Source: Bacteroides cellulosilyticus
GTDB taxonomy: Bacteria > Bacteroidota > Bacteroidia > Bacteroidales > Bacteroidaceae
Length of the DNA stretch: 64,000 nt
Direction: 5' to 3'
NCBI RefSeq assembly: GCF_020091405.1
Contig: NZ_CP081903.1
Coordinates: forward strand, 744,001-808,000
Position 1 is the stretch's first letter, and each line of letters starts with the position of its first letter. The notes under the pieces were generated by a model. The model was not told where the DNA came from, searched no databases, and worked only from the letters and a program-made list of their open reading frames with translations. The position numbers were made by a program, and so were the translations under genes. Shown here in pieces: positions 9,165 through 49,304 of the stretch.

Positions 9165-9221
9165 CAAAATTAAGAGTACCCTATTAACTGAAGCATTAAA
9201 AAAACATTAGCATCCAATTAA
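9165..9221 (-). promoter_or_regulatory. Phased TTAA-box promoter of ceramidase-like operon
   Basis: The -7 TAATTTTG (- strand, 9165-9172) is preceded by TTAA at 9184-9187, TTAA at 9196-9199, CTAA at 9207-9210 and TTAA at 9218-9221. The first gap is 11 nt and box-to-box steps are 12, 11 and 11. No TTTG -33 is present. Same layout as five other PUL promoters. Confidence 0.7.
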
Positions 9222-9248
9222 AATAGCGTTAATTACAGTCACCCCAAA

Positions 9249-9402
9249 TGGTAACTTTGTTAACCCCACACAGTAACTCCATTTACATACTGAGGTAAAG
9301 GTCGTTACATACCGAGGTAAAGAGCGTTACAATAGGAGGTAAAGGTCGTTACATACTGAGGTAAATGCTTTTACATCACAAGGTGAACACACTGTAAATA
9401 CT
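9249..9402 (+). repeat. Seven-unit 22-bp tandem array
   Basis: Seven consecutive 22-bp units (9249, 9271, 9293, 9315, 9337, 9359, 9381) share the core aGGTAAaggtcgTTAC. Each core is a dyad of GTAA and TTAC half-sites. Units 3-5 are closest to each other; the outer ones are degenerate. The array lies directly upstream of the phased-box promoter of the ceramidase-like gene. Confidence 0.85.
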
Positions 9403-9461
9403 ATCCATTGATAATCAGCCAACTATCCAATTACGTTCCTGATAAAATATACATTAAAACA

Positions 9462-9496
9462 CAAGCCGTTCATAACAAGATGCTACCAACGGCTTG
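9462..9496 (-). terminator. Terminator after GH38
   Basis: CAAGCCGTT (9462-9470) pairs with AACGGCTTG (9488-9496). On the - strand the stem is followed by TGTTTTAAT, a T-rich tail. It closes the SusCD-GH38 operon. Confidence 0.65.
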
Positions 9497-9531
9497 CAAA
9501 TATTTCCGATTCCGACATCTCCTCTACCATC

Positions 9532-12750: not shown

Positions 12751-12796
12751 ATTAAATTAATAGTACATGACAGTTTAACTCTCATAAACGAAACCA

Positions 12797-12828
12797 GCCA
12801 TAAGCCGAGTGTTAATCGGACTTATGGC
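12797..12828 (-). other. Intra-operon hairpin upstream of GH38
   Basis: GCCATAAG (12797-12804) pairs with CTTATGGC (12821-12828) with a CGA/TCG inner pairing. There is no T-tract, and it sits in the 112-bp gap between the lipoprotein and GH38. It could protect or separate the mRNA segments so that surface proteins and enzyme are made in different amounts. Confidence 0.45.
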
Positions 12829-12862
12829 AGGAACTAATTAGAGATCTATGTTCTGTTGCTTT

Positions 12863-14124: not shown

Positions 14125-15930
14125 TTAATTAGCTGCTGTTGATAACTTAGGCCAGTTCGGATTTTGCTGAAGTGCAGGGTTCATCAATATTTCTGATGTA
14201 CCAAGCGGGAACAGATAATCCTTCTTCTGGAAGATTAACGGCCTTTTTACATTCACAATATTATAGAAACCTCCGTCTTGCGGTTTAGGAACATCATATC
14301 CTTGAATGTATTTACCATTCATCACTTCTTCTGCTATTCTCCAGCGACGGATGTCGAAGAATCGGAAATCTTCAAAAGCCAACTCTACACGACGCTCGTG
14401 CCAAATCTTCTGACGCATCTCAGCTTGAGTCAGCCCAGTAGGCAGATCAGGCATACCTACACGGTTGCGAATCCGGTTGACAGCATCATAAACTGCTTGA
14501 GAAGGAGTAGCATCAAGCTCATTCTGTGCTTCTGCAAAATTCAACAACAGTTCATTCAAGGCGAAAATACGAGTGAAGTTTCTGCGGCAATTACCACGAC
14601 CGCCATTGTTTGGATCTGAATCCGAGAACATAGGATCGATGTACTTTTGTAAACAAATTCCAGTGAGAACAGCTTCCGCCCAACCGTGATTATTCGAATC
14701 CGAACCGCCAGCCCATGGCTGATAAGTATATTTATCATACTTGGCACCAGGGAATGCGAGGGTAGCCTTGAAACGAGGATCACGATCTTCGCCCTGCTTG
14801 GCGTTAGTAAAGTCGTAACCACTTTCCGGATCTGAAGGCATCAATCCGCTGGGATACATCTCAAATTCCATAGCCAACTGATAACTACCGTTCATCCAGT
14901 GGAAACCATTTTCCGTACGATTTCTCCACTGTGCATTGATACCTTCCCAGCGACCGTCAATAGTAGGATGAGAAAGCCAAATGATTTCCGGCGTATATTT
15001 AAACTGCCTATCAACAAATTTGCGATAATAATATTCCCAAGTACCCGGTTCCAACTCCGGATCGTCAGGTTCAGACTGTGGAGATTCCAAAGAGTAAGTG
15101 GGATCATCCATAACCTTTTTACAAGCCTCAACAACCTTTCTCCATCTTGATTTGTCATAATTCATATAACACTGGATATCAGTATACTCGGATGACACAG
15201 GAGAATCTGTATTAAATAACGGGCTGGCAGCCTGAAGACGTAAACGGGCTATACAAGCATAACAAGCTGCACTGGTAGCCATACCGACCTTATTAGGAGT
15301 GGCCGCAACATTCGAAGGAAGATCCCTGGCTGCCATTTCCAACTCGTTACATACCCATTCTACTGACTCTTCAAACGTGTTACGAGGCTGATTGGTCAGC
15401 TCTGTATAGTTGTTAGGATCCACAGAATGGTCTAAGATGATAACTCCTCCAAAACGTCTGATAAGCTCTTCATAGAAGAATGCGCGTAAAAATCTGACTT
15501 GCGCTTTCATCAGAACTTTATCCTCTTCTGATCCCTGCGCTCTATCTATGTTTTCCAAGAACAAATTAGCCTTACGAACTCTCGCATAGGTATTTTTCCA
15601 GAAACCGATAGTAGGGATGGAACCTTCCTCACCATCGCCACCACCGTCATCCGGCGTCCACATACCAAACTGGACTTTGTCCGTCCACAAGGGGGCGTAA
15701 CCACCGATTCCATCATCTGCAGCACAGTCATATATCACTCCGCGAGCAGTCACATTATAAGCGTTACCATACATTTCAGAGTAGATATCATTCATCACTT
15801 TTTTCGCCTCTATCACTGTTGCAAAGGCTTTATCGATATCCATATCATTACTTGCAGGTTTATCCAGATAATCCTGACATGAACATAAGAGCATTGTAAG
15901 CCCTAACAATAAATAATTTTTCTTTTTCAT
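14125..15930 (-). CDS. SusD/RagB family outer-membrane glycan-binding lipoprotein
   Basis: SusD-like proteins form the lid of the SusC transporter and bind the target glycan at the cell surface. This 601-aa protein has a lipobox near residue 17 (LCSCQDYLD), the RagB N-terminal helical region (DIDKAFATVIEAKKVMNDIY) and the C-terminal SusD segment (WHERRVELAFEDFRFFDIRRW, NPALQQNPNWP). It lies 12 bp after susC. The ligand is unknown. Confidence 0.95.
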   Translation of the reverse strand: MKKKNYLLLGLTMLLCSCQDYLDKPASNDMDIDKAFATVIEAKKVMNDIYSEMYGNAYNVTARGVIYDCAADDGIGGYAPLWTDKVQFGMWTPDDGGGDGEEGSIPTIGFWKNTYARVRKANLFLENIDRAQGSEEDKVLMKAQVRFLRAFFYEELIRRFGGVIILDHSVDPNNYTELTNQPRNTFEESVEWVCNELEMAARDLPSNVAATPNKVGMATSAACYACIARLRLQAASPLFNTDSPVSSEYTDIQCYMNYDKSRWRKVVEACKKVMDDPTYSLESPQSEPDDPELEPGTWEYYYRKFVDRQFKYTPEIIWLSHPTIDGRWEGINAQWRNRTENGFHWMNGSYQLAMEFEMYPSGLMPSDPESGYDFTNAKQGEDRDPRFKATLAFPGAKYDKYTYQPWAGGSDSNNHGWAEAVLTGICLQKYIDPMFSDSDPNNGGRGNCRRNFTRIFALNELLLNFAEAQNELDATPSQAVYDAVNRIRNRVGMPDLPTGLTQAEMRQKIWHERRVELAFEDFRFFDIRRWRIAEEVMNGKYIQGYDVPKPQDGGFYNIVNVKRPLIFQKKDYLFPLGTSEILMNPALQQNPNWPKLSTAAN

Positions 15931-15942: not shown

Positions 15943-18900
15943 TTAGAATGACACTTTAACTCCGACATTGACTACTTTCATCAAAGGATAGCTGGCATTT
16001 GTATTTTCCGGGTCATATACCGGAACTTTATCCCAAGTCACCAGGTTTATTCCATTGACATAAAGACGAGCATCAGTTCCTCTAATGGCTTTCATCCAAC
16101 TATCAGGAAGTGTATAACCGATCTCTATATTCTTCAAACGGATGTAGTTACCGTTTTTCAACCAGAAGGTACTGCTTCTGTTTCCATCGTTACCTGTCGA
16201 TCCTATCGCAGGGATAAGACGAGGCAAGCTCGCGTCACGATTCTCCGGTGTCCAGCGATCTAACCATTCAACAATAGGTGTACTGTTTTCGTTATTGAAC
16301 GGCATATTGGCACCGGTTCTGAAATCATAGTTCACATTGGCTGCTCCCTGGAACAGACAGCTAAAGTCAAAATTCTTGTACTTGAAGCCCATTTTCACAC
16401 TGTACATTATTTCAGGAACATTGGTAAATCCTATCGGATGCTGGTCATTATCGTCTATGACACCATCACCGTTGATATCCGCATACTTGATATTACCCGG
16501 ATAAAGAGGTCCGAACTGAGCGGGACTTCTCAAAATTTCTTCTTCCGACTGGAACAATCCTTCAGCGATAAATCCTCTAGCCTGACCTACGCGGTAGCCT
16601 ACCTGCTGCAAGTATGGATAAGCTCTCGGAGTTTCCGGTCTTTCGAGTATTTTATTGCGGGCAAAAGAGAACATACCACCTACAAAATAATCAAAGTTTT
16701 TGTTTAACCTTTCGTGCCATGTTCCGTCCAGCTCAATACCTTTATTTTCTACCTTTCCTGCATTGGCTGTAATCGCAGGTCCTCCATAGGTGGCCGGAAC
16801 AATATCTATATTGGTAAGGATATTGGTTCTTTTTTCATAGAACACATCAGTGGTCCACTCGAAGCGATTATTAAACCAACGGGAGTCAAAGCCGAAATTG
16901 AACTTATGAGCGGTTTCCCACGTCAAGCCAGGATTTCCGTTACGGACTTCTTTCAATCCACCACCGTTTCCTGTTCCGCCTTTATTGATACCGAATTTAG
17001 CATCGCCACCGCCGCCCCAACGACTTTCGTAGAAGAAGCGTTCGCCACCAATATTATCATTACCTACCATACCATAACTGGCTCTCAGTTTCATGTAATC
17101 CAACACCTTGTTTGATTTGAACCAATCTTCTTCTGTAAATACCCATCCAACGGAAGCGGAAGGAAAGAAACCGAATCTATTGCCCGGAGCAAAGTTCTCG
17201 GAACCATTGTAACCGGCGTTCACCTCGGCCAAATATTTGTCTCTGTAACCATAAGTCACACGCCCTACTATTCCTAAACGGCGATAAGCAACTTCCTGAT
17301 CGCGTACGGTATTCTCTTGTGCATTCATCAATATCAAACCGGAAACGGCATGCTGTTTATCACTACCAAACGTATTGTTATAGCGGATAGAGGGCTCAAT
17401 TACGTATCTGGTATTGTAGGAATTAATATTTCCTCCAAATCCTAACGGACTGCCGATTACCATATGAGGATAGGTTTCAACATTAGGACCAAAAGTAAAC
17501 ATATCATCATCTTTTCTGTGATCGTATGTATATAAGTTGTCGAAGTCGAAAGAGAAATCAACATTCACACTCAATCCCTTTACCCATTCCGACAAGTCGG
17601 CGGAAGCACCCAATGTAGCAGTAATAGCCGATTCTGCTTCCTTAGAATATCCATGAGATACCAAATGGGCAAGCACATTGTGGTTAGTCGTAGGAGGAGC
17701 CCCCCATGTACCATCCGGATTGCGAATAGGCGTCACATTTGGACTGGCTACACGAGCACGTTCAAAGATGGAGTTCACTCCAGACGACGGGCGACGCTTA
17801 TCGCCAATTACACCTGCCAAGGTCAATTTAGCTGAAATAACATTGTTCAACTGGAAGTCAAGGTTACTTCTGAAGTTATACTTGGTATAGCTTACATTAG
17901 TACTATAATTATCATTGTAAGCACCACGGCGGAATATACCTTCTTGTCTCAACACATTAGCAGACACAAAATATTGCATTTTCTCCGATCCACCGGTAAT
18001 GCTGGCATTGTACTGTTGCATATAAGCATTTTTCTTCAACACTTCATCAAACCAATTAATATCAGGATACAAGAAAGGATTTCCTCCTCCACTTTTATAT
18101 ATGTTCAACTGATCCTGTGAATATTTGGGAGATTGACCATTGTTCACCAAAGCTTCATTTGTCAACACGGCCATATCATACGCACCTACCAGTTCGGGCA
18201 TTGAAGAGGGCGATTGCAGACCAAAGTCGGCCGAGAAGGAAATGACAGGTTTACCCACTGTACCGCGCCTGGTAGTAACAAGTACCACACCATTCGCACC
18301 ACGTACACCATATACAGCTGTAGCCGAGGCATCTTTCAAGATACTGATATTCTCAATTTCCGAAGATTCCATCATGGCAAGTCCTTCCTTACCACGATCA
18401 ATACCATCAATCAAGATGAGCGGGTCTTGTCCAGAACCGAATGTACTGATACCGCGAATATACAAAGTCGCCTGATCCGCCCCTGGCTCACCGGAACGTT
18501 GTACAGTAATCAAACCTGGTAATCGCCCGGCTAAGGCATTGGATACATTGGATACAGGACTTTGCTTAAGCTCCTTTACCGAAACTGTTGCGATGGCACC
18601 CACCACCGAAGCTTTCTTCTGTTGGCCATATCCTACTACCACCACTTCCTCCAATTGTGTCTCATCCGGAGACAGGGAGATGCGGAAGAAATTATCGCTT
18701 GCTTTAACTACCTGCCGATAATCTTGATAACCGATATAAGATACTTTCAATGTATCTCCCGTTCGTACATTATCCAATTTGAATACCCCATCCACATCGG
18801 TGATTCCACCATTAACCGTACTGTTAGTTACTCGAACTGTGGCACCAATCAATGGTTGATTGGTTTCATCCAACACCAAACCTTGGATTGATTTGGTCTG

Positions 18901-18990
18901 CTGCGCATGGGCTACGCCAACTACAAGCAGCAATGCGCTTATGCCCACAAACCGTCCAATTTTTCTTTTTATATTTGTTAGTGCTCTCAT
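15943..18990 (-). CDS. SusC/RagA family TonB-dependent outer-membrane transporter
   Basis: This 1015-aa protein imports oligosaccharides through the outer membrane using TonB energy. A signal peptide (about 1-29, AHAQ) is followed by a CarboxypepD_reg-like domain (GLVLDETNQPLIGATV to YIGYQ), a TonB-box/plug entry (EEVVVVGYGQQKK), the plug (DPLILIDGIDRG) and a 22-stranded barrel ending VGVKVSF. It starts 3 bp after the preceding lipoprotein gene, so translation is probably coupled. It does not have an extra N-terminal anti-sigma-interacting domain, consistent with no ECF sigma factor being seen here. Confidence 0.95.
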   Translation of the reverse strand: MRALTNIKRKIGRFVGISALLLVVGVAHAQQTKSIQGLVLDETNQPLIGATVRVTNSTVNGGITDVDGVFKLDNVRTGDTLKVSYIGYQDYRQVVKASDNFFRISLSPDETQLEEVVVVGYGQQKKASVVGAIATVSVKELKQSPVSNVSNALAGRLPGLITVQRSGEPGADQATLYIRGISTFGSGQDPLILIDGIDRGKEGLAMMESSEIENISILKDASATAVYGVRGANGVVLVTTRRGTVGKPVISFSADFGLQSPSSMPELVGAYDMAVLTNEALVNNGQSPKYSQDQLNIYKSGGGNPFLYPDINWFDEVLKKNAYMQQYNASITGGSEKMQYFVSANVLRQEGIFRRGAYNDNYSTNVSYTKYNFRSNLDFQLNNVISAKLTLAGVIGDKRRPSSGVNSIFERARVASPNVTPIRNPDGTWGAPPTTNHNVLAHLVSHGYSKEAESAITATLGASADLSEWVKGLSVNVDFSFDFDNLYTYDHRKDDDMFTFGPNVETYPHMVIGSPLGFGGNINSYNTRYVIEPSIRYNNTFGSDKQHAVSGLILMNAQENTVRDQEVAYRRLGIVGRVTYGYRDKYLAEVNAGYNGSENFAPGNRFGFFPSASVGWVFTEEDWFKSNKVLDYMKLRASYGMVGNDNIGGERFFYESRWGGGGDAKFGINKGGTGNGGGLKEVRNGNPGLTWETAHKFNFGFDSRWFNNRFEWTTDVFYEKRTNILTNIDIVPATYGGPAITANAGKVENKGIELDGTWHERLNKNFDYFVGGMFSFARNKILERPETPRAYPYLQQVGYRVGQARGFIAEGLFQSEEEILRSPAQFGPLYPGNIKYADINGDGVIDDNDQHPIGFTNVPEIMYSVKMGFKYKNFDFSCLFQGAANVNYDFRTGANMPFNNENSTPIVEWLDRWTPENRDASLPRLIPAIGSTGNDGNRSSTFWLKNGNYIRLKNIEIGYTLPDSWMKAIRGTDARLYVNGINLVTWDKVPVYDPENTNASYPLMKVVNVGVKVSF

Positions 18991-18993: not shown

Positions 18994-20463
18994 TTATTTC
19001 TTCTTAAAAATAATTTTCTGACAATTCCAACCACCAGGGGTGATATCCACACGTAATTCATGTTGTCCCTTTGTAAGAGAGAGAGTGACAGGGTCTGCCG
19101 GCGCATAGAAATCCCAGTTGCCTGTACCTACTCCACCTACTCCTGTTTTACCCTCTACTTTCTCACCTCCATCTACCGAAAGCCAGAAGGGTTTGTTTGC
19201 TTCATTAGAATAGAACATGAATGCGTCATAGTCACCGTCTTCCAGTACATTAATGGTATACGTACACCACACTTCAGGACCATCATTGTTACCAAGCAAA
19301 CTGGTATAGAGATTACCATCATTGTTACGTCTAATAGCTCCACCATCACCGCGATTCTCATTATTGATAAAGTCTGCAGTAGTCAACTGTAACGTACCAG
19401 GTATATTGTTGTAAGTCAGATAGTCATATCTGGAGATTTCTTTGCCACCAGATATGATTCCAACCTGTACAGGCACAAGCCAATAACCGTCTGTTTTAGC
19501 ATCATCTACCCAAAGACGTTTCCCTTGTTGCATAGGCATCGTCAACGTCTCCATTTCACCCGGTACTGCACTGGCAGTTTTAGCCATTTCAGTGCCCTCA
19601 TAATAAAGCACATAACCATCAATACCTGTAATAACAGGATCTTTGTGAATTCGGATATATTCAGTAGTTTTATTCGGGATATCATTACTGTTGATAGCTG
19701 GATTCAATCCTACAAAGTCTGCTCCATCATCATAACCATCAATAGTCACTACAGGCGCATTAGCTAGTGTTTCTGCTGCTACAGAAATGTTACCGGAATA
19801 GTCAATGGCATACACTTTCAATGGTTGAGTGATATCACCCATGATAGAAGCAACAGTAGTTTCTGCATCTACAGTCATGGACGAAGTACCCAACTCAATT
19901 CTAAACTCTTTCACGTCATTGTCTTCAGGACTTTTCCATACAGCAAATGCTGTTTCATCTCCCATTTTATAACCGGTCAAATCAATTACCGCACCGGGAC
20001 TCACATTATCGTGTACCCATGGTTTGGCACTAATCGTAACGCCATAAGCAAGTTGACCATTCTGATTTTCCGTCTTAACCATAAATGTGTACTTCTCATA
20101 GTTAGTCAAACCGGTAAAGACAACTTCCGTATCAGTACCTCCTACTACCTGTTCTTGACCAGTGTTCTGGTTAGTCACATGGATTGCTTTCAACGACTCT
20201 GATAAGGCTACATTCCATGTCAATTTGATTTGTCCATCAGCTCCCTCGGCAGCCAACTTGTCTACATCACTGGGCGGAATAAATTCAAACTGCCCCGGCA
20301 CATCTGTCACTGGGAACTTGTATTCCTCACAGGCACAGAGACCAAATACAAGACATACCAGCGGCACAGCTATCCGATAGTGGCGCTGTTGCTTCTGAAC
20401 ACACGGAAAACTCCGAACCCGTTCTTTCTCGCTTTTGTTCTTCTTAAAAAGGTGCTTTTTCAT
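18994..20463 (-). CDS. PUL surface lipoprotein with FN3-like and C-terminal carbohydrate-binding-like domains
   Basis: This 489-aa lipoprotein has an unusually long basic n-region (about 30 residues) before the hydrophobic segment and lipobox (GLCAC, Cys about 46). After it come FN3/DUF4959-like beta domains (EGADGQIKLTWN, then GYKMGDETAFAVWKSPEDN) and a C-terminal domain (about 350-489) with the jelly-roll style of CBM6/35-like modules (DGDYDAFMFYSN, GQHELRVDI). It is probably a surface glycan-binding protein. It is the first gene of the SusCD operon, 3 bp ahead of susC; in most PULs such proteins follow SusD. Ligand unknown. Confidence 0.7.
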   Translation of the reverse strand: MKKHLFKKNKSEKERVRSFPCVQKQQRHYRIAVPLVCLVFGLCACEEYKFPVTDVPGQFEFIPPSDVDKLAAEGADGQIKLTWNVALSESLKAIHVTNQNTGQEQVVGGTDTEVVFTGLTNYEKYTFMVKTENQNGQLAYGVTISAKPWVHDNVSPGAVIDLTGYKMGDETAFAVWKSPEDNDVKEFRIELGTSSMTVDAETTVASIMGDITQPLKVYAIDYSGNISVAAETLANAPVVTIDGYDDGADFVGLNPAINSNDIPNKTTEYIRIHKDPVITGIDGYVLYYEGTEMAKTASAVPGEMETLTMPMQQGKRLWVDDAKTDGYWLVPVQVGIISGGKEISRYDYLTYNNIPGTLQLTTADFINNENRGDGGAIRRNNDGNLYTSLLGNNDGPEVWCTYTINVLEDGDYDAFMFYSNEANKPFWLSVDGGEKVEGKTGVGGVGTGNWDFYAPADPVTLSLTKGQHELRVDITPGGWNCQKIIFKKK

Positions 20464-20530: not shown

Positions 20531-20598
20531 CAAAACTATAAGCAAACCATTAATAAATCATATAAAAATTACATAAAAACTAATTAATATTGCATTAA
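20531..20598 (-). promoter_or_regulatory. Phased TTAA-box promoter of the SusCD operon
   Basis: The -7 TAGTTTTG (- strand, 20531-20538) is preceded by TTAA 20550-20553, TTAT 20562-20565, TTAT 20573-20576, TTAA 20584-20587 and TTAA 20595-20598. The first gap is 11 nt, then steps of 12, 11, 11, 11. The leader to the start codon is about 68 nt. It is the longest array in the window and resembles the sequence at 21922-21967. Confidence 0.75.
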
Positions 20599-21921: not shown

Positions 21922-21967
21922 TAAAGCTAAGACTGAGTCCTTAACAGATCACATAATAACTACATAA
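21922..21967 (-). promoter_or_regulatory. Phased-box promoter upstream of the 214-aa gene
   Basis: A -7-like TAGCTTTA (21922-21929) follows TTAA 21941-21944, TTAT 21953-21956 and TTAT 21964-21967. The gap is 11 nt and steps are 12 and 11. The -7 is one base off consensus. The region is visibly similar to the SusCD-operon promoter, suggesting one was copied from the other. Confidence 0.55.
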
Positions 21968-34398: not shown

Positions 34399-34530
34399 TA
34401 TCGATTGATATATTTATTTATACCGAGCGGTATATTTATTTATACCGATCCGTATATACATTTATACCGCTCGATATATTTGTTTATACCGGGCGATATA
34501 AATAAATATACGCAAGGATATATAAACCTC
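34399..34530 (+). repeat. Six-unit 22-bp tandem array between GH92 and GH3
   Basis: Units begin at 34399, 34421, 34443, 34465, 34487 and 34509, each 22 bp. The core TACCGnnCGgTATAT is a dyad (for example ATACCGAGCGGTAT) followed by an AT-rich linker. A perfect 9-bp inverted repeat, AGCCTAAGG (34378-34386) and CCTTAGGCT (34533-34541), brackets the array. It fills most of the 258-bp gap between the two - strand genes. Confidence 0.85.
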
Positions 34531-36863: not shown

Positions 36864-37832
36864 TTATTTAGTTTGTGTTACCACTTGTATGGTACCATCC
36901 GGATTATAATAGAGCTTATCTACACAAATAGAACGAAGATTTCCTTTGCCTGAAATAGAGCTATTATGATAGAAAGCAAACCATTCTCCTTTATATTCAG
37001 CAATAGAACCATGACTTGTATCGCAACCTGTAGGTTCAAGATAAATGCCCTGATATGTCCACGGTCCTAACGGAGAATTACTGGTTGCATAATTCAAACG
37101 ATTAGCTCCCTTGCCATTCTCCGCATGGTTATCAGCATAGGACAGGTAGTACACACCGTCTTTCTTATGTATCCAGGCAGCCTCATGAAAATCTTTCAGA
37201 CCTTCCATTGCACGCAGCGGTTCTGCCAATTCCATCATATTATCCTTCATTTTGGCACCCACACAACGACCTCCACCGCCATAATAGAAATAAGCCTGAT
37301 CATCATCATCCACAAAGACACAAGGGTCTATCATGGCAAAGCAATCGTCTTCCATTCCTATCATTTCAATATACTTGTCTTGTACAGTAAAGTCTTTGGC
37401 AGGATGTTTACTGGTAGCTATACCCACTCTCCAGGTATTGTTCCAGTCATCACCACTCGGGTGCGGAAAGTAAAAATAATAAGTACCATCCCTATATGCA
37501 CAATCGGGTGCCCACATGAAGCCACCATCTTTACGTCCCCAAGACACCTGCGAAGAGTTCAGTATTTCACCATGATCCGTCCAGTTCACCATATCATCCG
37601 TAGAGAATACATGATAGCGGTCCATCAAATCACACCCACGCGGAGGATCAACATCATGAGAAGCATAAACATACAAACGTCCGTCTTCCCATACATGAGC
37701 TGAAGGATCGGCTGTGTACATGTGAGTAATAAAAGGATTCGGACCTAAAGCAACCGTTTCAGCTTGCTTCTGGTTATTGCAGCTCATCAATGTCAACGAC
37801 AAGGCAGTTAAGGTAATCAAATAGTTTTTCAT
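36864..37832 (-). CDS. GH43 glycosidase, lipoprotein (copy B)
   Basis: This 322-aa lipoprotein (LMSC, about residue 18) is a GH43 beta-propeller with DPSAHVW, IDPCVFVDDD and DFHEAAWIH carrying the catalytic triad. It is a close paralogue of the GH43 at 25502-26488; much of the N-terminal half is identical in protein, and the DNA is still visibly similar. The main difference is an insertion near VQDKYIEMIGMEDDCFAMIDP, near the active site. It is the first gene after a phased-box promoter (37866-37911). Confidence 0.9.
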   Translation of the reverse strand: MKNYLITLTALSLTLMSCNNQKQAETVALGPNPFITHMYTADPSAHVWEDGRLYVYASHDVDPPRGCDLMDRYHVFSTDDMVNWTDHGEILNSSQVSWGRKDGGFMWAPDCAYRDGTYYFYFPHPSGDDWNNTWRVGIATSKHPAKDFTVQDKYIEMIGMEDDCFAMIDPCVFVDDDDQAYFYYGGGGRCVGAKMKDNMMELAEPLRAMEGLKDFHEAAWIHKKDGVYYLSYADNHAENGKGANRLNYATSNSPLGPWTYQGIYLEPTGCDTSHGSIAEYKGEWFAFYHNSSISGKGNLRSICVDKLYYNPDGTIQVVTQTK

Positions 37833-37865: not shown

Positions 37866-37911
37866 CAAAATTAGAGTTGACTGATTAACAAAGCTCTTAA
37901 TTTCAACTTAA
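37866..37911 (-). promoter_or_regulatory. Phased TTAA-box promoter of GH43-GH92 operon
   Basis: The -7 TAATTTTG (- strand, 37866-37873) is preceded by TTAA at 37885-37888, 37897-37900 and 37908-37911. The gap is 11 nt and steps are 12 and 11. Leader to ATG is about 33 nt. Confidence 0.72.
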
Positions 37912-39752: not shown

Positions 39753-42617
39753 TTATATAGATAACACTTTATATTTGGTAGTAAATACAACTGAATCCAT
39801 ATTCTCCTTATCCACACTGAAAGGTATCAGTTTCTCTTCTCCCGGAGCCAACTCATAATGAACATTATCGCCCATTTTCTTACCTCCGACATACATTTCA
39901 ACTTTTCCTGTATCCATCAAAGTCCCATTGTTTTTAACTGAGAGCCAGATAGTATTCTGATTCTTTACCAGATTTTCTTCTACTTTGAATAAAGTCAAGC
40001 CGAAATCTGCTGCAAATTCATGGGTATATTCAAGCATACCTGACAAACCTTTCTTAGAATCCTTATAACCCACACTATCCTTAATACGGTCATTAGCCAC
40101 ATACTGAGGACTCACACCACCAACTAAGATTTTAAACGTACCTTTCTCCACAACCCGGTCCATATGATCATTGAGCAATGATAATTCATAAGGCGTCAAT
40201 TCAAAAGAAACCGTTTTTGCCTCACCCGGTTTCAAGTGAATACGGGTAAAGTTTTTCAATTCTGTAATACGTGTCTTCACACTAGCATACATATCCGTTA
40301 CATATAGCTGTACCACCTCATCACCGGCACGTTGTCCTATATTCTTCACAGTGGCCTGCACTGTAATATTACCATTTTCCTTTTCCTGTACTTTCAGGCC
40401 TGAATATTCAAACGAAGTATAGCTCAACCCATATCCGAAATAGTAAAGAGGATAGTATTCCATATCCGAATATTCATAGCGGCGACCGGAAGTTTTAAAG
40501 TTGTAATAAAGAGGAAGCTGACCTACGTGTCGTGGGAAAGTCATCGGTAAACGACCGGCAGGGTTGTAATCGCCAAACAACACATCCGCTGTAGCCGGAC
40601 CACCTTCTTGTCCAGGCAACCAGTTCACAAGGATAGCTTTACATAACTCCGACGCTTTAGACAAATTATAGGGACGCCCCGCCTGAAGAATTAATATGAC
40701 AGGCTTTCCGGTTGCGCAAACAGCTTCCAATAATTCCTGTTGTTTGCCCGGCAGAATCAGTGTTGCATAATCGTGATTTTCACCGGATGTCTTGTATACA
40801 TCCGTAGTAGCCTCACTGGTTGAACAATCTCCCAAAACCAATAGCACCACATCTGATTGTGAAGCCGCTTTTACCGCCTTTGCAATATTATCTTCGCCTA
40901 AACTTGTAAAATCACAACCTTGTTCATAAATCACTTTCGTCTGCTTTCCTACCGCTTGTTTGATACCTGTCAACACAGATTTCAACTGACCAGGCTGAAG
41001 TTTAGGAGTATAATCACCAGGTTGAAGATCATCTGCACCGGGACCTAGCACAGCAATCGTACGCATGTCTTTAGACAAAGGCAAAATATGATCCTTATTC
41101 TCTAACAGTACAATAGATTCGCGGGCAGCCTGACGCGCCATTTCTTTATGACTATCCGAATTCCAACCCGGATATATCTTATTCCAGTCCAATGGTTTAT
41201 TAGGTGCTTTTTCAAACAGTTCATTACGGAACATCATACGCAACATTGTGCGGCACACCTCATCAAGGTTTTCCATATTGATACGTCCATCCTTTGCAGC
41301 CCGTATCACTTCCTTATCATTATACGTATCACCACAGTTCGTGGCAATCCCGGCTGCCAAGGCCTGGTTAGCCGCTTCTATCTTATCTTTAGCTGTATAA
41401 TGTTTGCGGGCAGTCAAATTAGCTATAGCACCGCAGTCACTAACTATGAAACCGCTGAATCCCCATTCCTCACGCAAAATATTATGCAGCAATTCTCTAC
41501 TTTTCGCTACAGGAACACCCAGAAAATCCGAATATGCCATCATCAAAGATTGGCAATCATAGTTACGAATAACATGACGGAACGGAACCAGATGTACTTC
41601 ACGCATTTCACGTTCAGACAACCCTATATCATGGGAATCGCGTCCTCCCAACGGAGCGCCATGACCACCAAAATGTTTCGGAGTAGTATATAGTCCCATA
41701 GACTGGTACCCTTTAATCCAAGCTCCACCAATCTGTGATACCAAAACCGGATCTTCTCCAAACGTTTCTTCACAACGTCCCCAACGGGCATCTTGGGCTA
41801 CATCCAATACCGGAGACCATGCCTGCATAGTTCCTGCCGAAAGTGTTTCATCACCAATCGCCATCGCCACTTCTTCCGTCAACTTCTTATTCCAGGTTGC
41901 TCCCATTGCCAGAGCTTGGGGAAAGATAGTAGCTCCACTACCATACGAAAAACCATGTACAGCCTCAACTTTCGTAATAGGTGGTACATATAAATGAGGA
42001 ATACCAGGAATACCCCAGCCCTCACGTATCAGTTCCATTTTATCTTCCGGCGTCATCACAGACAGCAAACTCTCCACACGCTCTTCCACCGGAAGCGTAG
42101 GGTCCATATAACGGAGCGAAGTTTTTTCTCCTTTTCGATCTTTCAATTCCTTATCAGCTAAAAGAACAGATACTTCCTTTACCATAAAAGGTTTAACACG
42201 ATCGCCTCCCTTAAAAGCCAACCTGACATGAGCTCCATATTTAGGTGAAAACTTCAGCCGCATTTCTTTAGCACTACCTTGTACCTGATAATCTACAGGT
42301 ACTCCCAGATTCATAGGATCATATGTAACGAAGATATTCATCAACTGTTTCAAATCCTCTTTAGAAACACCTTGCATCTGAATTCCAAGTTCACATACAT
42401 CACCCGGAGTATGGATAGTGAACATCAACCATTGGTCTGTTTTCAAATCCTGCCCACCAACTTCCCACATTGTCTTTTGATCCTTATCAAAAGCTAACGA
42501 AGCTTTTTCCACATTAGTTGATGCTGAAACTGACAAAATATCACTTGGCTGCTGAGCCATTAGAAAAGAACAGGATAATATTCCTGCAAATAAGAACAAG
42601 TGCCTTTTTAAATTCAT
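39753..42617 (-). CDS. GH3 beta-glycosidase with N-terminal discoidin-like domain
   Basis: This 954-aa exported protein (signal about 1-22) begins with a beta-sandwich domain (about 28-155, SLAFDKDQKTMWEV) before the GH3 (beta/alpha)8 region. The nucleophile Asp is in FIVSDCGAI; the early motif is TIFPQALAMGATWN. The second GH3 domain, a FN3-like domain and an extra C-terminal beta domain (about 840-954) follow. It differs clearly from the PA14-containing GH3 in this locus, so the two probably act on different linkages. It is divergent to the regulator gene and is driven by a five-box promoter. Confidence 0.9.
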   Translation of the reverse strand: MNLKRHLFLFAGILSCSFLMAQQPSDILSVSASTNVEKASLAFDKDQKTMWEVGGQDLKTDQWLMFTIHTPGDVCELGIQMQGVSKEDLKQLMNIFVTYDPMNLGVPVDYQVQGSAKEMRLKFSPKYGAHVRLAFKGGDRVKPFMVKEVSVLLADKELKDRKGEKTSLRYMDPTLPVEERVESLLSVMTPEDKMELIREGWGIPGIPHLYVPPITKVEAVHGFSYGSGATIFPQALAMGATWNKKLTEEVAMAIGDETLSAGTMQAWSPVLDVAQDARWGRCEETFGEDPVLVSQIGGAWIKGYQSMGLYTTPKHFGGHGAPLGGRDSHDIGLSEREMREVHLVPFRHVIRNYDCQSLMMAYSDFLGVPVAKSRELLHNILREEWGFSGFIVSDCGAIANLTARKHYTAKDKIEAANQALAAGIATNCGDTYNDKEVIRAAKDGRINMENLDEVCRTMLRMMFRNELFEKAPNKPLDWNKIYPGWNSDSHKEMARQAARESIVLLENKDHILPLSKDMRTIAVLGPGADDLQPGDYTPKLQPGQLKSVLTGIKQAVGKQTKVIYEQGCDFTSLGEDNIAKAVKAASQSDVVLLVLGDCSTSEATTDVYKTSGENHDYATLILPGKQQELLEAVCATGKPVILILQAGRPYNLSKASELCKAILVNWLPGQEGGPATADVLFGDYNPAGRLPMTFPRHVGQLPLYYNFKTSGRRYEYSDMEYYPLYYFGYGLSYTSFEYSGLKVQEKENGNITVQATVKNIGQRAGDEVVQLYVTDMYASVKTRITELKNFTRIHLKPGEAKTVSFELTPYELSLLNDHMDRVVEKGTFKILVGGVSPQYVANDRIKDSVGYKDSKKGLSGMLEYTHEFAADFGLTLFKVEENLVKNQNTIWLSVKNNGTLMDTGKVEMYVGGKKMGDNVHYELAPGEEKLIPFSVDKENMDSVVFTTKYKVLSI

Positions 42618-42645: not shown

Positions 42646-42713
42646 CAAAGTAAGCCTCACTTGCTTAATAAAATGATAAAACTATAATTAATGAAACATT
42701 AAAATCCACTTAA
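42646..42713 (-). promoter_or_regulatory. Phased TTAA-box promoter of GH3 operon, in the divergent region with the regulator
   Basis: A -7-like TTACTTTG (- strand, 42646-42653) is preceded by TTAA 42665-42668, TTAT 42676-42679, TTAA 42688-42691, TTAA 42699-42702 and TTAA 42710-42713. The gap is 11 nt; steps are 11, 12, 11, 11. It lies between the GH3 start and the regulator's own promoter, whose -7 is TATTTTTG at 42792-42799 and which shows no phased boxes. Confidence 0.72.
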
Positions 42714-42791: not shown

Positions 42792-42799
42792 TATTTTTG
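42792..42799 (+). promoter_or_regulatory. -7 element of the regulator gene
   Basis: TATTTTTG lies 30 bp before the regulator ATG at 42830. A convincing TTTG -33 is not seen at 19-21 bp, so expression may be low. No TTAA boxes precede it at the phased positions. Confidence 0.5.
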
Positions 42800-42829: not shown

Positions 42830-45427
42830 ATGAAAAAGACACTATTCATTATCTTTCTTCTGTTAATATGTATGCATTCATTCGCTCAGCTTCCTGAGTA
42901 CGGTTTGCATATCCAATCCTACCCACTTCAGAATTCTGAGTTTACCAGTATGGCATTAGAAGATGGAAAGCCTATAGAAACTAAGGGTGACAAAATAACT
43001 CTGAGCTTCAACCTCTGGGTCAGACCTGATAATGTATTCGGAACCGTATTCCGCATCATTACTGAAAACAATAAGAATGTTGACTTGATGTACAGTGTCA
43101 GCGAAAACGACAGACGCTTCCCGATTCTGGTCACTGGAGATGCAGTACACCCTATTCAAAAAGAAGTGAGACGCGAGACCTGGACTTCAGCCAGCCTGAC
43201 CCTCGATGTTAAAGAGGGAAATATTACCGTATTGTATGACAGTACGGAAATTAATGTGAATTACCCCGACCTGAAAGGTTCGCAGAAACTACGCTTTGCT
43301 TTCGGCTATTGTCCATATGAAGGTTTCTCCTTAGCCGATGTGGCCTCCGTTAATATAAGAGATATCAGCATCAAGCGTGGATTAAAGGAAATACGCTTGT
43401 GGAAGATGGCACGCCATAATAAGGAAATCTGTTATGACGAGATTTCCCACAGTCCGGCTTCCGGCAAAAATACCCGTTGGATCATTGACCAGTATATCAC
43501 TTGGAAGAAGATTCATTCACAGCAATTCAAATCTTCTCCCTCTGTAGCATTCGATCCTACTGTCGGTACTTTCTATATAGCCAACAACAAACAAAAGTTG
43601 TATGTTTTCCATACGGATGAAAGGATAACTGACACTATCCAGATAAAAGGCGGAGAGTTTGTAGCCAACTACCCCAACCAGTTGATATATCTGCCAGAGC
43701 AACATCAGTTGTTATCCTACAACCTGAATGAAAACCTATATTCGTTCTTTGATCCAGTTTCACAAAGCTGGAAAGGGACACAGGCAGCCGTACAGGAACA
43801 CGACTACTGGAATAACACACTCGTTTATAATCCGGCCAATTCTTCACTGATCAGCTTCGGTGGATATGGGCATTATCATTATAACAACAAGCTATTAATT
43901 TGCTATCCCTATGAAAACGCCCCGCAACGTCACCTCAATCTGACGAATATTCATCCCAGATACTCTTCCAGTTCTGTCATAGTTGACAGCACACTTTATA
44001 TCTTCGGAGGACGCGGTTGTCCATCCGGACGGCAGGAATTATCTCCCCGCAACTATTATGATTTATACGCTGTCAACCTGCTAACCCAGCAAGCCAACAA
44101 ACTATGGGAACTCACTGAAGTTCCGGATGGAGGAAATTTTCAACCCAGTGAAAACATGATTTATGATCCCGAAAAAAAATGTTTCTACTTCTTCAGTACG
44201 CAACAAGGTGGCACGTTGATGAAAATCGATACTCAAACACCACATTTCGAACTCATGTCATTGCCTATCGGAGTAAAATTAGAGTCTCAATATATGTATA
44301 CTAACTTATACTATTCCCCCAAACAAAAAAAGTTATATACAGTGATTCACCAAGCTGAGGTAAGTGGTAAGGCTGATATAGATATCTATGAACTGAACTT
44401 CCCTCCGATTCCCGTTTCATCCTTTAAACAACCGGATGTGGTTGCAGGCAATGCCAGTCAAAATAACCAGTCATCTATATGGCTGTACATTATAGCTGGA
44501 ATACTGGTTATTACCGGAATGGGAGTTTTCTATTATAGAAAGAAAAAGGCCGAAATAAACCGGATCAAAACCGCTACCGAAGACAATAAACAAACAGAAA
44601 CGAACAGCTTCCAGCCAGAAGCTGCGAATGACTCTCTAACAAATGATATATCTGAGATAAAAATAGAGATGCCCATGCACACAGAGGCTACGACATTTCA
44701 TAACTATGATTTCTCCAAGGAATGCGTTTGTTTCTTTGGCGGATTCCGTGTCATTGACAAGGAAGGAAATGATATTACATCTTCCTTTACACCTACCCTC
44801 AAATCCTTATTGATATTACTGGTTCTTTATACAGGAAGAGACCCCAAAGGTATCATCGGACACAAATTGATCCAGTTATTGTGGTATGACAAAACGGATG
44901 AATCTGCCAAGAACAACCGTAATGTATATATGAGTAAACTACGCGGTTTATTGGAAAAAGTGGGTGACATCAAGATATTGAATCAAAATGGCTTCTGGAG
45001 CATACAGTTTGAAGAAGGAACTATTTGCGACTATCTGGAAGCACTTCATCTATATAAAGAGAATAATAGCCAGAACTTAGAGAAGCTGCTTGAGTTATTG
45101 CTGCGTGGTATAATGTTACCTAATATGGAAATCGATTGGATTGATGCGTTCAAGAATGATTTTTCAAATAGCACCATCGATCTGCTTTGCAGGTTACTGA
45201 AACGGGAAGACCTCTCGGAAACATTAAAGCTAAAAATTGCAGATACACTATTCCAACATGACTATATCAATGAGGAAGCTCTCTGTGTAAAATGCCGCAT
45301 TCTTTGTCAGCAAGGAAAGAAAGGGCTCGCCAAGACTGTCTATGATACTTTCTGCAAAGAATATGCCGCTTCGCTGGGAACAGAATACAAGTTCTCCTTA
45401 ATGGAAATTATCGACGAACAGAACTGA
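42830..45427 (+). CDS. Membrane-tethered SARP-like transcription regulator with exported jelly-roll/kelch sensor
   Basis: This 865-aa protein is read from the ATG at 42830, which gives a clean signal peptide (about 1-20, HSFAQ). The exported part has a concanavalin-like jelly roll (about 40-190) and kelch-type repeats (about 235-530; GGYGHYHYNN, LYIFGGRG). One membrane helix follows (about 548-568, IIAGILVITGMGVFYY) with a basic stop-transfer. The cytoplasmic part has an OmpR/SARP-type winged helix (about 630-732, FFGGFRVIDKEGNDIT to NGFWSIQF) and a helical BTAD-like end (NEEALCVKCRILCQQGKKGLAKTVYDTF). It therefore can sense sugar outside and bind DNA inside without a kinase. It is the only regulator in the PUL and is divergent to GH3. 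Confidence 0.85.
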   Translation: MKKTLFIIFLLLICMHSFAQLPEYGLHIQSYPLQNSEFTSMALEDGKPIETKGDKITLSFNLWVRPDNVFGTVFRIITENNKNVDLMYSVSENDRRFPILVTGDAVHPIQKEVRRETWTSASLTLDVKEGNITVLYDSTEINVNYPDLKGSQKLRFAFGYCPYEGFSLADVASVNIRDISIKRGLKEIRLWKMARHNKEICYDEISHSPASGKNTRWIIDQYITWKKIHSQQFKSSPSVAFDPTVGTFYIANNKQKLYVFHTDERITDTIQIKGGEFVANYPNQLIYLPEQHQLLSYNLNENLYSFFDPVSQSWKGTQAAVQEHDYWNNTLVYNPANSSLISFGGYGHYHYNNKLLICYPYENAPQRHLNLTNIHPRYSSSSVIVDSTLYIFGGRGCPSGRQELSPRNYYDLYAVNLLTQQANKLWELTEVPDGGNFQPSENMIYDPEKKCFYFFSTQQGGTLMKIDTQTPHFELMSLPIGVKLESQYMYTNLYYSPKQKKLYTVIHQAEVSGKADIDIYELNFPPIPVSSFKQPDVVAGNASQNNQSSIWLYIIAGILVITGMGVFYYRKKKAEINRIKTATEDNKQTETNSFQPEAANDSLTNDISEIKIEMPMHTEATTFHNYDFSKECVCFFGGFRVIDKEGNDITSSFTPTLKSLLILLVLYTGRDPKGIIGHKLIQLLWYDKTDESAKNNRNVYMSKLRGLLEKVGDIKILNQNGFWSIQFEEGTICDYLEALHLYKENNSQNLEKLLELLLRGIMLPNMEIDWIDAFKNDFSNSTIDLLCRLLKREDLSETLKLKIADTLFQHDYINEEALCVKCRILCQQGKKGLAKTVYDTFCKEYAASLGTEYKFSLMEIIDEQN

Positions 45428-45450
45428 AACAAATTACAATACCCCTAAAA

Positions 45451-45486: not shown

Positions 45487-45517
45487 CTTATATTATATAT
45501 CCGGATTCGACTTTGAT

Positions 45518-46753
45518 TTACTTGCGTACCGGTTGCTTCATCTCCAACGGCATTTCCTTACGCAACATTTTACCGGCCTGGCCTACCAGCCACAAGTAAT
45601 GATCACTGCCAATGCCTTCCTCAATGGGTACAAATGTACTGGCACCTACGGGAACCTTTTTAGCACATTTAAAGATAGCCGTACCTTCATCTATCTCATC
45701 AAACATAGCTACATAAAGCATTTCCGCACCTTCCTTCAGAGCTCCGGACAACTGCTTCCAAAGGAACGAACCTTTGTTACGCGGTATCTGCACACTGTTC
45801 TCATGCCCCTTCATATTACGCCAGGAGAATCCCGGAAAAGCCAAAGGTGCATAATCCACTTTATTCTTTTTCGCCCACTCGATGTCACCTTTAATCAGTT
45901 TCTGATAACGGGGATACGAGTCTTCATTATATCGTCCTACAAACCAGGGCATCACAACATCACACCGTTTTATCAACTCATGCAGACGAGGATCCGACTC
46001 GGTATCCCCACTCAATTCGCGCCAATGCGTAGGCACTCCCAGCATCACACTAAAGCCCTGTGCCTTCAAACCATTGATAATCTTTTCGGCTTCATCCAGA
46101 CCGTAACGGCGGCGATCATTGAAACCTACTCCCCAGACCGTAACCAGCGGTTTTCCATTATGATACAAATAAGAGGGATTCTTGGCATGATCTTTCAGAG
46201 AATGACGTTTAGCCACATCAGAAATATCTTTCAGCAAAATATCCTCATCACCGGGACGCATACCACTTAAATCATACATGACACAAATGGCACGCTCGTA
46301 TTTATTGGCTGCTTTCATGGCAGAGTTCAAAACAGTATTGAAATGTTTCAAACCACTCTCACCACGGATTTCCCCGACAAAACGCTGCATAAACACACCA
46401 TCCAATCCATATTCTTTCATCCATCTGAAATGAGTATCTACCGTAGACTCATCGTGTGAGGAGAAAGTATAGGCCGGAGTTCCGTCTGCAAACTTGAACT
46501 CCGTCTTATACAGTTTTTCATACTCCGATACTTCCGGCCAGAAGTCAATCGTACAAGAACCGGGGCGAAAGCCATCGTGTCCGGTATAGTGATACCACCC
46601 CCGATTGGCGCCATCATCAGGGGCATTAAACCACCCCTGATAACCGGCCATCACCAATCCTTTGTACGAATTGTACTGTTTACCGGCAACCTGCGCCGTA
46701 ATACCTATCGAAAACAACAAGCATACAATAAACCAATTTAATCTTTTTACCAT
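45518..46753 (-). CDS. GH99-like (endo-alpha-mannosidase-like) glycosidase
   Basis: This 411-aa exported protein (signal about 1-20, TAQ) has a (beta/alpha)8 pattern resembling GH71/GH99-type proteins, often annotated in Bacteroides as xylosidase/arabinosidase. GLVMAGYQGWFNAPDDGANRG opens the domain; FSSHDESTVDTHFRWMKEYGLDGVFMQRF and GKPLVTVWGVGFND are the strongest motifs. GH99 enzymes are endo-acting on alpha-mannan, which would fit GH38 and GH92 here; if so it is the only endo-enzyme in the locus. I cannot place the catalytic residues with certainty. It lies 35 bp after GH95. Confidence 0.65.
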   Translation of the reverse strand: MVKRLNWFIVCLLFSIGITAQVAGKQYNSYKGLVMAGYQGWFNAPDDGANRGWYHYTGHDGFRPGSCTIDFWPEVSEYEKLYKTEFKFADGTPAYTFSSHDESTVDTHFRWMKEYGLDGVFMQRFVGEIRGESGLKHFNTVLNSAMKAANKYERAICVMYDLSGMRPGDEDILLKDISDVAKRHSLKDHAKNPSYLYHNGKPLVTVWGVGFNDRRRYGLDEAEKIINGLKAQGFSVMLGVPTHWRELSGDTESDPRLHELIKRCDVVMPWFVGRYNEDSYPRYQKLIKGDIEWAKKNKVDYAPLAFPGFSWRNMKGHENSVQIPRNKGSFLWKQLSGALKEGAEMLYVAMFDEIDEGTAIFKCAKKVPVGASTFVPIEEGIGSDHYLWLVGQAGKMLRKEMPLEMKQPVRK

Positions 46754-46788
46754 AACCTATTTCTATTTCTTATTCGTTGTATCGATTG

Positions 46789-49218
46789 TCAGAATGCTCT
46801 GTGCAATGTGTACTTTTCTCCCGGTTGTGTCTGTATATCATACTCATAAATCTTATACAAGAGAGGATATTGCGCCCTTAATCCGGCAGCGACCAGCGGT
46901 TCCTTAATATCTCCGCGCTTCATCAACGGATTCGGATTATCGCCCTTCGCTTCCTTAAGACCTACACCTTCCAACGGCACATACGAACGTATACGCAGAT
47001 TGCCGCCAATACGTGAGGTTACGGTAGCCGTAGTCAATTCACCGCCATCCCAGTCCATGTCCACTTCGAAAGCACCGCGGGCTACCAGACCTTTTACACT
47101 ACCCTTGTTCCAATCCTGAGGCAAGGCGGGCAATAAATGCAAAGCCTCGTCATGACTTTGAAGCAACATCTCAGCTACCCCGGCTGTGAAACCGAAGTTT
47201 CCATCAATCTGGAAAGGCGGATGTGCGTCAAACATATTCGGATAAGTACGTCCGTCAGGATTATCCTTTTCCACCAGCTTCAACATATTCTTGATAATCT
47301 TATAAGCATGATCACCGTCGAGCAGACGTGCCCATAGATTGATTTTCCAGCCGATAGACCACCCCGTAGCCATGTCACCCCGATAGAGAAGTGAGCGTTT
47401 AGCTGCCTGGAAAAGCTGCGGATGCGCATAAGGGGAAATCTGGTTACTGGGATAAAGTCCGTACAAGTGGGAAACATGGCGATGGTCATTATTCGGATCA
47501 TCCACATCCGCCAGCCACTCCTGCAACTGGTTATGCTTGCCTATCTGCATAGGCGGCAAACGCTTAATCATACTTTGCAGACTATCCCGATAGGAGGTAT
47601 TAGCGGGATACAACAGTTGGGTAGCCGACAGTACAGAAGTCAACGCATCCAGCACGATCTGAGTGTCCATCGTACATCCGGCGGTAATCATCGTACCGGT
47701 TCCCGGAGGACCCTGTTCGGGAGACATAGAAGGAGCACAGACCATCCAGCCATATTTAGGATGTTCCACCAGGAAATCGAGGAAGAAATCGGCCGCCCCC
47801 TTCAAAGCCGGATAAGCAGTTTTCAAGAATGCCTGATCGCCTGTATAAAGATAATGTTGCCACAGATGTTGGCTCAGCCAAGCGCCACCCAACGGCCAGA
47901 CATACGAAGCACCATCCACAGGTCCGGCCATACGCCACAGATCCGTGTTATGATGTACGGTCCACCCACGGCACTCGTACAAGGTACGTGCTGTGCCTTG
48001 TGCCGACTCTGACAATTCTTTCACCATCTGGAACAGTGGTTCATGCATTTCCGGAAGATTTGTCACTTCTGCCGGCCAGTAGTTCATCTCCGTATTGATA
48101 TTGATGGTGTACTTTCCATCCCACGGAGCCAATAGTTCCTGATTCCAGATACCTTGCAGTCCGGCAGGCTGTCCGCCGGGTTGCGAAGAGGATATAAGCA
48201 GGTAACGCCCGAACTGGAACATTAACGCCACCAATCCCAGATCTTTCCTTTCATTGAAATGCTTGATGCGGTAAGATGTTTCTTCCTGGCTGGAGGGACC
48301 GATGTTCAGAGAGACACGCCCGAAAAGCTTTTGATAGGCTTCTTCATGAGCAGTAAGCGCCTGGACATAAGGGCGTTTCATGGCTTTTGCCAGAAACTCC
48401 GTTGCCCGACGGGTTTCATTGGCACTTACATCTTTATAATTGACGAAGTTGGTTGCAGCCGTCACATAAATCACAGCAGCATCTGCACCTCTCACTTCAA
48501 TGCAATCATTGGCGACATTGACTTTACCCTTCTCCGCCTTGATCTGCGTGCGGGTTTCAAAACGAATAGCTCCCGGAATACCTTCGTGCGCCGAACCATG
48601 TCCGGACAGCAGCAGGCTCTTACCATTCTTCTTTACCTCGTACTCTTTATGCGGAGTACTATATCGGGTTGTAAAATTGACAGCACCGGGTTTATCCGCC
48701 TCGATACGGATGATCAAAGCATTATCTACCAAAGAAGTAAATATGGTACGGGTATAATTCACTTCGCCTATCTTATACCGCACGGATGCAACTGCCCGTT
48801 CCAAATCTAAATCCCTGCGATAATCGGAGTAATCGGTATGTCCGTCAAATTCCAGCATCAAGCTGCCAATCGTCTGGAAAGGCATGCCATGTTGCCCGGT
48901 AAAGAAGTTATCAGCCATTATCTTTTCGGCTTCTTTCTCACGCCCTGCAAAAATAAGTTCCCTGACTTTGGGCAATACACCGAATGCCTTCGGACTATCG
49001 TTACGATGAGGACCACCGCCCCAGACAGTCTCCTCATTCAACTGTATCTGTTCGTTAACCACTCCGCCATAAACCATGGCGCCCAAACGTGAGTTACCCA
49101 AAGGTAATGCTTCGGTCCATACTTTGGCAGGTTGCTGATACCAGAGTTTTAAGTCATCAGCTTTAGCCATCAAGCAGCAAGCACATACAATGCACAGACC
49201 TATCAAACGGTTTTTCAT
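46789..49218 (-). CDS. GH95 alpha-L-fucosidase/alpha-L-galactosidase
   Basis: GH95 enzymes are inverting enzymes removing terminal alpha-L-fucose or alpha-L-galactose. This 809-aa exported protein (signal about 1-20, AKA) has the full family pattern: [17 protein letters not shown] and [11 protein letters not shown] at the start, the Asn-x-Asn motif in [12 protein letters not shown], Glu in [11 protein letters not shown] and the Asp in [12 protein letters not shown]. Length is normal. It is the rightmost PUL gene, first in a two-gene operon with the GH99-like protein and led by a phased-box promoter. Confidence 0.93.
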
Positions 49219-49247
49219 GATTTTTATAAGTTTATGTTTTCCGAATG

Positions 49248-49304
49248 CAAAGAAAAGCGCGACTCATTAATAATATCAATGAAAAGACATTAATATCAAC
49301 TTAA
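49248..49304 (-). promoter_or_regulatory. Phased TTAA-box promoter of GH95 operon
   Basis: A -7-like TTTCTTTG (- strand, 49248-49255) is preceded by TTAA at 49267-49270, 49290-49293 and 49301-49304. The gap is 11 nt and the next boxes fall 23 and 34 nt upstream of the first, as in the other arrays with one box lost. GTTGATATTAATG and CATTGATATTATTAATG form a visible direct repeat. Confidence 0.68.

Follow-up and report, generated by a model that had tools for sequence, protein, structure and literature searches.

TTAA box arrays at six promoters of a Bacteroides polysaccharide utilization locus are predicted operators of a transmembrane SARP-domain activator

The genome of Bacteroides cellulosilyticus (6.94 Mb, a single contig) contains a minus-strand polysaccharide utilization locus (PUL) at about 6.25-49.2 kb of the 64-kb window analysed here (genome positions 744,001-808,000; coordinates below are those of the window unless given in kb or Mb of the genome). 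Six promoters of this PUL carry rows of TTAA-type boxes in fixed register with the -7 element. From the DNA sequence and structure prediction, we propose that these rows are operator arrays of a transmembrane activator that switches on the PUL, with a probability of about 0.84. The activator would belong to the SARP (Streptomyces antibiotic regulatory protein) type. Its candidate gene (42830-45427, plus strand) lies inside the PUL, divergent from the GH3 gene.

Box arrays in register with the -7 element

The original prediction gave one -7 position for each promoter. These positions are correct; each is the last base (3' end) of a minus-strand 8-mer, and these 8-mers start at 49255, 42653, 37873, 21929, 20538 and 9172. 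The 8-mer is exactly TANNTTTG in three promoters (37873, 20538 and 9172) and has one mismatch in the promoters of GH95 (TTTCTTTG), GH3 (TTACTTTG) and a 214-aa open reading frame (TAGCTTTA). A TTAA ends exactly 11 nt upstream of the 8-mer in all six, as had been claimed. More boxes were said to recur at steps of 12, 11 and 11 nt. This describes most of the array: TTAA or TTAT occupies 17 of 24 slots (-27 in four of six promoters, -38 in five, -49 in four and -60 in four), and the box at -60 is an addition to the proposed series.

Shuffled sequence does not reproduce this spacing. The six upstream stretches were subjected to 5,000 dinucleotide shuffles; on average 1.01 boxes and at most six then fall into the 24 slots. 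No shuffle yields an offset between -70 and -6 that has TTAA in each of the six promoters. The promoter consensus of B. fragilis, as cited in PMC7366714, is TAnnTTTG at -7 and TTTG near -33. This canonical -33 element is indeed absent: no TTTG starts at -23 to -25, the expected site, in any of the six promoters.

A single box is a poor guide. The scan suggested originally, box-N11-TANNTTTG, is non-specific: it matches the genome 143 times, and its reversed control does so 100 times. When up to three mismatches are allowed, the fixed array gives 17 matches vs one in the control. Hence, it is the array and not the single box that carries the information.

Sites were picked by TTAW-N11-8mer in loci with regulator relatives, and 27 that precede PUL genes were compared (six of them from the window). 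Conservation of TTAA at -15 and of the 8-mer in this set results from the selection; TTAA is also conserved in the unselected columns -38, -49 and -60. The 15 sites from outside this genome served for training and yielded a weight matrix, with which we scanned both strands of the window, and a sequence-only profile, R1, whose E-values are rough.

The weight matrix ranks the six promoters 1 to 6 in the window, with scores of 55.0 (GH95), 54.2 (GH3), 43.3 (the unit behind the array at 9165), 41.7 (fn3-SusC-SusD), 22.2 (GH43) and 16.1 (214-aa), followed by 13.4 at rank 7. The best score in 100 block-shuffled windows averages 11.6 and reaches 23.1 at the highest, so that the first four arrays score above every shuffled window. 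Shuffled windows reach 22.2 and 16.1 (0.01 and 0.08 times per window). Thus the GH43 and 214-aa sites are weaker when taken singly.

All arrays and the genes behind them are on the minus strand. The best R1 match in the genome is the GH3 array (42646-42713, E = 8.2e-9; gene 39753-42617), with TTACTTTG at -7, TTAA at -15, -38, -49 and -60, and TTAT at -26. The GH95 array (49248-49315, E = 1.4e-8; gene 46789-49218) has TTTCTTTG and TTAA at the same four positions, with TCAT at -27. Before the unit at 7809-9089, the array (9165-9232, E = 3.9e-7) combines TAATTTTG with TTAA at -15, -27, -49 and -60 and CTAA at -38. The fn3-SusC-SusD array (20531-20598, E = 0.003) has TAGTTTTG, TTAA at -15, -49 and -60, and TTAT at -27 and -38; the unit starts with the fn3 protein (18994-20463) and continues with the SusC-like (15943-18990) and SusD-like (14125-15930) genes. 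The GH43 array (37866-37911, E = 5.4e-4; gene 36864-37832) is shorter, with TAATTTTG, TTAA at -15, -27 and -38, and no box at -49 or -60. The weakest array (21922-21967, E = 3.3) precedes the 214-aa frame (21085-21729) by 192 nt, counted to the ATG, and has TAGCTTTA, TTAA at -15 and TTAT at -27 and -38.

The promoters of GH3, GH95 and GH43 were traced in three sister genomes. In every one of them R1 detects the first two, besides promoters of the PUL of the regulator's paralogue; the orthologous GH43 promoter is detected in one (B. oleiciplenus, L279). All 16 box columns are invariant in the GH3 set (five genomes) vs 26 of 44 other upstream columns, and all 16 in the GH95 set (four genomes) vs 31 of 44. 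The GH43 set (four rows; 9 of 16 box columns and 13 of 44 others invariant) provides no footprint because two of its rows are not shown to be orthologous. An assignment of the GH43 promoter to two further sister genomes was withdrawn: the upstream gene is the same, but the downstream gene has no match in the window.

Besides the genes named above, the PUL encodes GH92, GH2, GH30 and GH38 enzymes. A GH99-like gene (45518-46753), below the Pfam cut-off, has relatives in five of ten SARP-PUL regions compared. The window also contains 22-bp tandem repeats, a length of two helical turns, at 9283-9376 (immediately upstream of the 9165 array), 34407-34523 (between the GH92 and GH3 genes) and 61285-61344.

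A SARP domain behind a predicted membrane helix

The regulator has 865 residues. Pfam and NCBIfam find no DNA-binding domain in this protein by itself, and hence a fold prediction was needed. Behind a signal-like hydrophobic helix at the N-terminus, AlphaFold2 and Foldseek predict a LamG/pentraxin-like domain (residues about 25-190; 42902-43399, plus strand) and a beta-propeller (residues about 200-525; 43427-44404, plus strand), with the bounds of both set by eye, those of the former from secondary structure. In Pfam the propeller region is Kelch-like, below the curated cut-off. The fold search with this putative sensor part returns mostly propeller and LamG matches of unrelated function.

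A predicted long helix follows (residues 546-577; 44465-44560, plus strand), which we take as a transmembrane helix. Since KKK comes after its hydrophobic stretch, the C-terminus is probably cytoplasmic. Beyond a linker lies the C-terminal domain (residues 632-865; 44723-45424, plus strand). Its predicted fold resembles the SARP domain of AfsR, an OmpR-type winged helix and then a helical bacterial transcriptional activation (BTA or BTAD) domain. SARP domains are typically N-terminal, in proteins without a transmembrane helix; here the domain is C-terminal and behind a predicted one. We therefore file the regulator as a SARP-domain protein of new architecture. Its best segments are 78-82% identical to proteins of B. 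oleiciplenus, B. timonensis and B. cellulosilyticus; the relative in B. cellulosilyticus DSM 14838 is at 78%.

The regulator gene has a candidate -7 element of its own, TATTTTTG (42792-42799, plus strand), 30 nt upstream of the ATG. There is no TTAA at -15 of this element and no plus-strand R1 match in the window up to E = 10. Hence, we predict no autoregulation.

Arrays and regulators across Bacteroidota

R1 finds 13 matches in this genome at E <= 0.05. Five belong to the PUL of the window, six (2.697-2.737 Mb) surround the closest paralogue of the regulator, and the remaining two are at 218.9 and 221.6 kb. Eleven of the 13 thus fall into two SARP PULs that together cover 1.4% of the genome (binomial 4e-19). 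SARP-domain matches in the genome are significant for three genes (the fourth has E = 0.15). The third gene, a paralogue at 437 kb, has only a weak adjoining site (436715, R1 E 0.4).

The locus of the two remaining matches (G000:C1:216899-222234; arrays at 218916 and 221565, minus strand) encodes O-antigen-ligase-like, DUF5128 six-bladed propeller and DUF1573 proteins and small peptides. Homologous loci in two other genomes (G035:C201 and G036:C12) also give profile matches.

Among 61 genomes, this one included, 17 have a relative of the regulator, 12 have an R1 match (E <= 0.01) and ten have both. When the five training genomes are removed, the 56 others contain 12, 7 and 5, respectively (Fisher 0.003). 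A second set, 294 genomes of the order without this one, has about 25 genomes in common with the first and contains 16 with a relative, nine with an R1 match and four with both (Fisher 0.0006). In all four, a SARP gene has at least one array at a distance of about 10 kb or less. One of these arrays (G273) has five boxes in full register beside a regulator whose domain is only 27% identical.

The strongest test of the association uses loci fetched by the regulator protein alone. Of 80 such loci, 73 were new to the analysis, and 34 of these 73 contain 62 R1 matches (E <= 0.01; nominal expectation 0.01). The array-bearing loci include some from Bacteroides, Dysgonomonas, Galbibacter and an Alistipes metagenome-assembled genome (MAG); a Cytophagales MAG has a weak match (E 0.007).

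Boxes can be counted in the 73 loci without the profile. Intergenic TTAA triplets number 6, 3, 9, 87, 38, 2, 4 and 9 at spacings of 8 to 15 bp, and among the 256 four-mers TTAA takes first place. At 11 bp, it does so as well in the orthologue group, in that of the paralogue and in two divergent groups. Between a triplet's third box and TNNNTTTG, the distance is most often 38 (24 of 106), followed by 15, 27, 16 and 26. Reciprocally, if sites are selected by an upstream triplet and TNNNTTTG (40 regions), TTAA stands at -15 in 28 of 33, against a background of 1.3%. Removal of six sites from R1-fetched stretches leaves 22 of 27.

In 23 of the 34 matching loci, the matched start of the regulator is preceded, at about 0.6 kb or less, by an array on the opposite strand (L180, L181, L182, L185, L194, L196, L202, L204, L208, L210 and others). 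The divergent neighbour therefore looks like the most conserved target.

Other candidates did not hold up. An 11-bp TGGC/GCCA signal of some loci was rejected as a second box type; where inspected, it is mostly a 22-bp alternating inverted repeat. Such repeats, of the form TTGGCA...TGCCA, occur in or near SARP-PUL loci (L180:12666; G001:C52, in L057, L058 and L148; G012:C1, in L141). Profile-only matches in G036:C6, G012:C35, G051 and G057 are unconvincing given their neighbouring genes.

Two good R1 matches lie before large genes in genomes in which no SARP domain was found (G240:C11:42638 and G061:C22:18389). They may be targets in trans or belong to a regulator not seen.

Several observations weigh against our reading. 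At the promoters themselves, GH95 has a TTG at -24, and the step beside the promoter-proximal box is 12 (or 23) bp, which is not the classical SARP spacing. Triplets are in excess at 12 bp as well (the 38 above), a surplus that, as a guess, comes from mixed 11- and 12-bp steps. Regulators also occur without arrays: seven of the 17 genomes with a relative give no R1 match, 39 of the 73 loci have none in the stretch covered (at most about 14.6 kb of each), and four divergent or atypical groups (DNA-binding domain 24-38% identical) have no clear TTAA array in 1.8-11 kb of intergenic sequence per group. Conversely, arrays occur away from regulators. This applies to two R1 matches in G036, one of the five genomes outside the training set with both a relative and a match, to five of nine matches in G294, which are more than 10 kb from any SARP gene, to matches in two of 61 and five of 295 genomes in which no SARP gene was found, and to the arrays at 218-221 kb, near which we found none. 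Misses are likely in searches over 40 genomes, for which the filters are stricter. Finally, the assignment to the regulator of the window rests on position, because both SARP-PUL paralogues share the array.

This last point leads to the most serious alternative, in which the paralogue at 2.70 Mb reads the arrays too, or reads them instead, in one cross-talking regulon. Both PULs carry the same array and the C-terminal domains of the two regulators are 53% identical. Yet each PUL has its own regulator, and in G005 an orthologue is the only regulator relative found (the genome is 94% complete, and one of its sites trained R1), with arrays beside it. The base at -16 also differs, being A or G in 14 of 15 orthologue-type sites and T or C in nine of 12 paralogue-type sites, although this is one of 16 positions, uncorrected. 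We regard cross-talk as possible but doubtful. A general factor of PUL promoters, other than a SARP, could bind TTAA arrays as well, and would account for arrays at 218-221 kb and in the few genomes where no SARP was found. Such a factor is improbable: strong R1 matches are confined to two PULs despite 98 SusD-family matches in the genome, and arrays associate with SARP loci and have SARP geometry.

Two further explanations involve no cognate protein or no selection, and we give each of them very little credence. The spacing could simply come with AT-rich intergenic DNA or with DNA curvature, in which case no protein would read it. The loose pattern, only mildly enriched, fits this idea, but the shuffles, the first rank of TTAA at 11 bp and the register to the -7 element do not. 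Alternatively, duplication of a single cassette could have produced the promoters, whose likeness would then reflect descent and not selection. The pair of sites at 218-221 kb is indeed similar outside the boxes too; across the set of 27 sites, by contrast, boxes are conserved and the spacers between them vary.

A SARP-domain activator remains the likeliest reader of the arrays. The original proposal, SARP-type operators read by the 42830-45427 regulator, has good computational support: the C-terminal domain is predicted to have the SARP fold, the boxes have SARP geometry, and arrays occur together with members of the regulator family across Bacteroidota. It does not follow that these six sites make up its regulon: the PUL of the paralogue (2.70-2.74 Mb) and the sites at 218.9 and 221.6 kb also carry the array, and the 214-aa site is weak.

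A proposed switch and its known relatives

In the mechanism we propose, the LamG-like and propeller part would sense a signal in the periplasm and allow SARP domains in the cytoplasm to bind. Each box would take up one protomer, with the protomers side by side on one face of the DNA and anchored in the membrane. Counted as the heptamer TTAANNN, the promoter-proximal box ends 8 bp before the -7 element, and the boxes upstream, in steps of 12 and then 11, 11 and 11 bp, would give cooperative binding. The proximal SARP would then touch RNA polymerase and dock the sigma factor, standing in for the missing -33 element, and the PUL would be switched on.

The rows of boxes together with a membrane-anchored SARP relative suggest a new class of PUL switch. 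We think it reasonably likely that transmembrane SARPs with LamG/propeller sensors form a further class of PUL regulators across Bacteroidota, from Bacteroides to Galbibacter. Their operators would follow a single conserved code, in which four to five TTAA-type boxes line one face of the DNA at a fixed register to the -7 element, and protomers reaching from the membrane would there replace -33 recognition by the Bacteroidota primary sigma factor. If this is true, regulons of the class can be predicted from a readable operator code, SARP activation extends beyond actinobacteria, and the activation of Bacteroidota promoters that lack a -33 element has a testable explanation.

Other regulators share the transmembrane one-component layout with an OmpR-type winged helix, but they have the reversed domain order and are not known to have a BTA domain or such box arrays. 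PUL regulation in Bacteroides, as described so far, relies on SusR-like regulators, hybrid two-component systems and extracytoplasmic function (ECF) sigma/anti-sigma factors (PMC3878776); the main text of that paper does not mention SARPs. Our literature search, which left out most subscription journals and all bioRxiv preprints, found no paper on SARP regulators of PULs.

Like the SusR-like regulators, the regulator described here is predicted to be a membrane protein with a periplasmic sensor and a cytoplasmic C-terminal DNA-binding domain that activates a PUL. In SusR-like motifs, a distance of 67 or 77 bp separates the two direct-repeat sites (Ravcheev et al. 2013, PMC3878776), whereas our boxes recur every 11-12 bp. 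The DNA-binding domain of SusR has, according to the same paper, no significant similarity to known ones. Like the hybrid two-component systems of Bacteroides, the regulator is PUL-encoded and predicted to be a membrane protein with direct-repeat operators. Those systems differ in their AraC-type domain, phosphorelay and sites that average 21 bp apart (PMC3878776); the Pfam and NCBIfam matches of our regulator include no histidine kinase, receiver or AraC-type domain.

There is a close likeness to the SARPs of Streptomyces (AfsR, PimR and others) and to mycobacterial EmbR, which combine an OmpR-type winged helix with a BTA domain. Their direct repeats recur once per helical turn, the last one 8 bp before the -10, at promoters with a weak or absent -35. 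The direct repeats of SARP promoters are spaced by 11 or 22 bp, and 8 bp separate the 3' repeat from the -10 (PMC10936776). AfsR protomers lie side by side on two 11-bp repeats (-40 to -19), where they carry sigma region 4 and so replace a good -35. The arrays of the window have the same 11-bp steps and the arrangement TTAANNN-N8-8mer, except for the step of 12 (or 23) bp at the last box. A review of SARPs gives two or three boxes (PMC10972967); here there are up to five. Unlike in Streptomyces SARPs and EmbR, the SARP domain is at the C-terminus of a predicted transmembrane protein with LamG-like and propeller domains, and its putative operators combine a 12-bp step at the promoter end with a Bacteroidota -7 element in front of sugar-harvesting genes.

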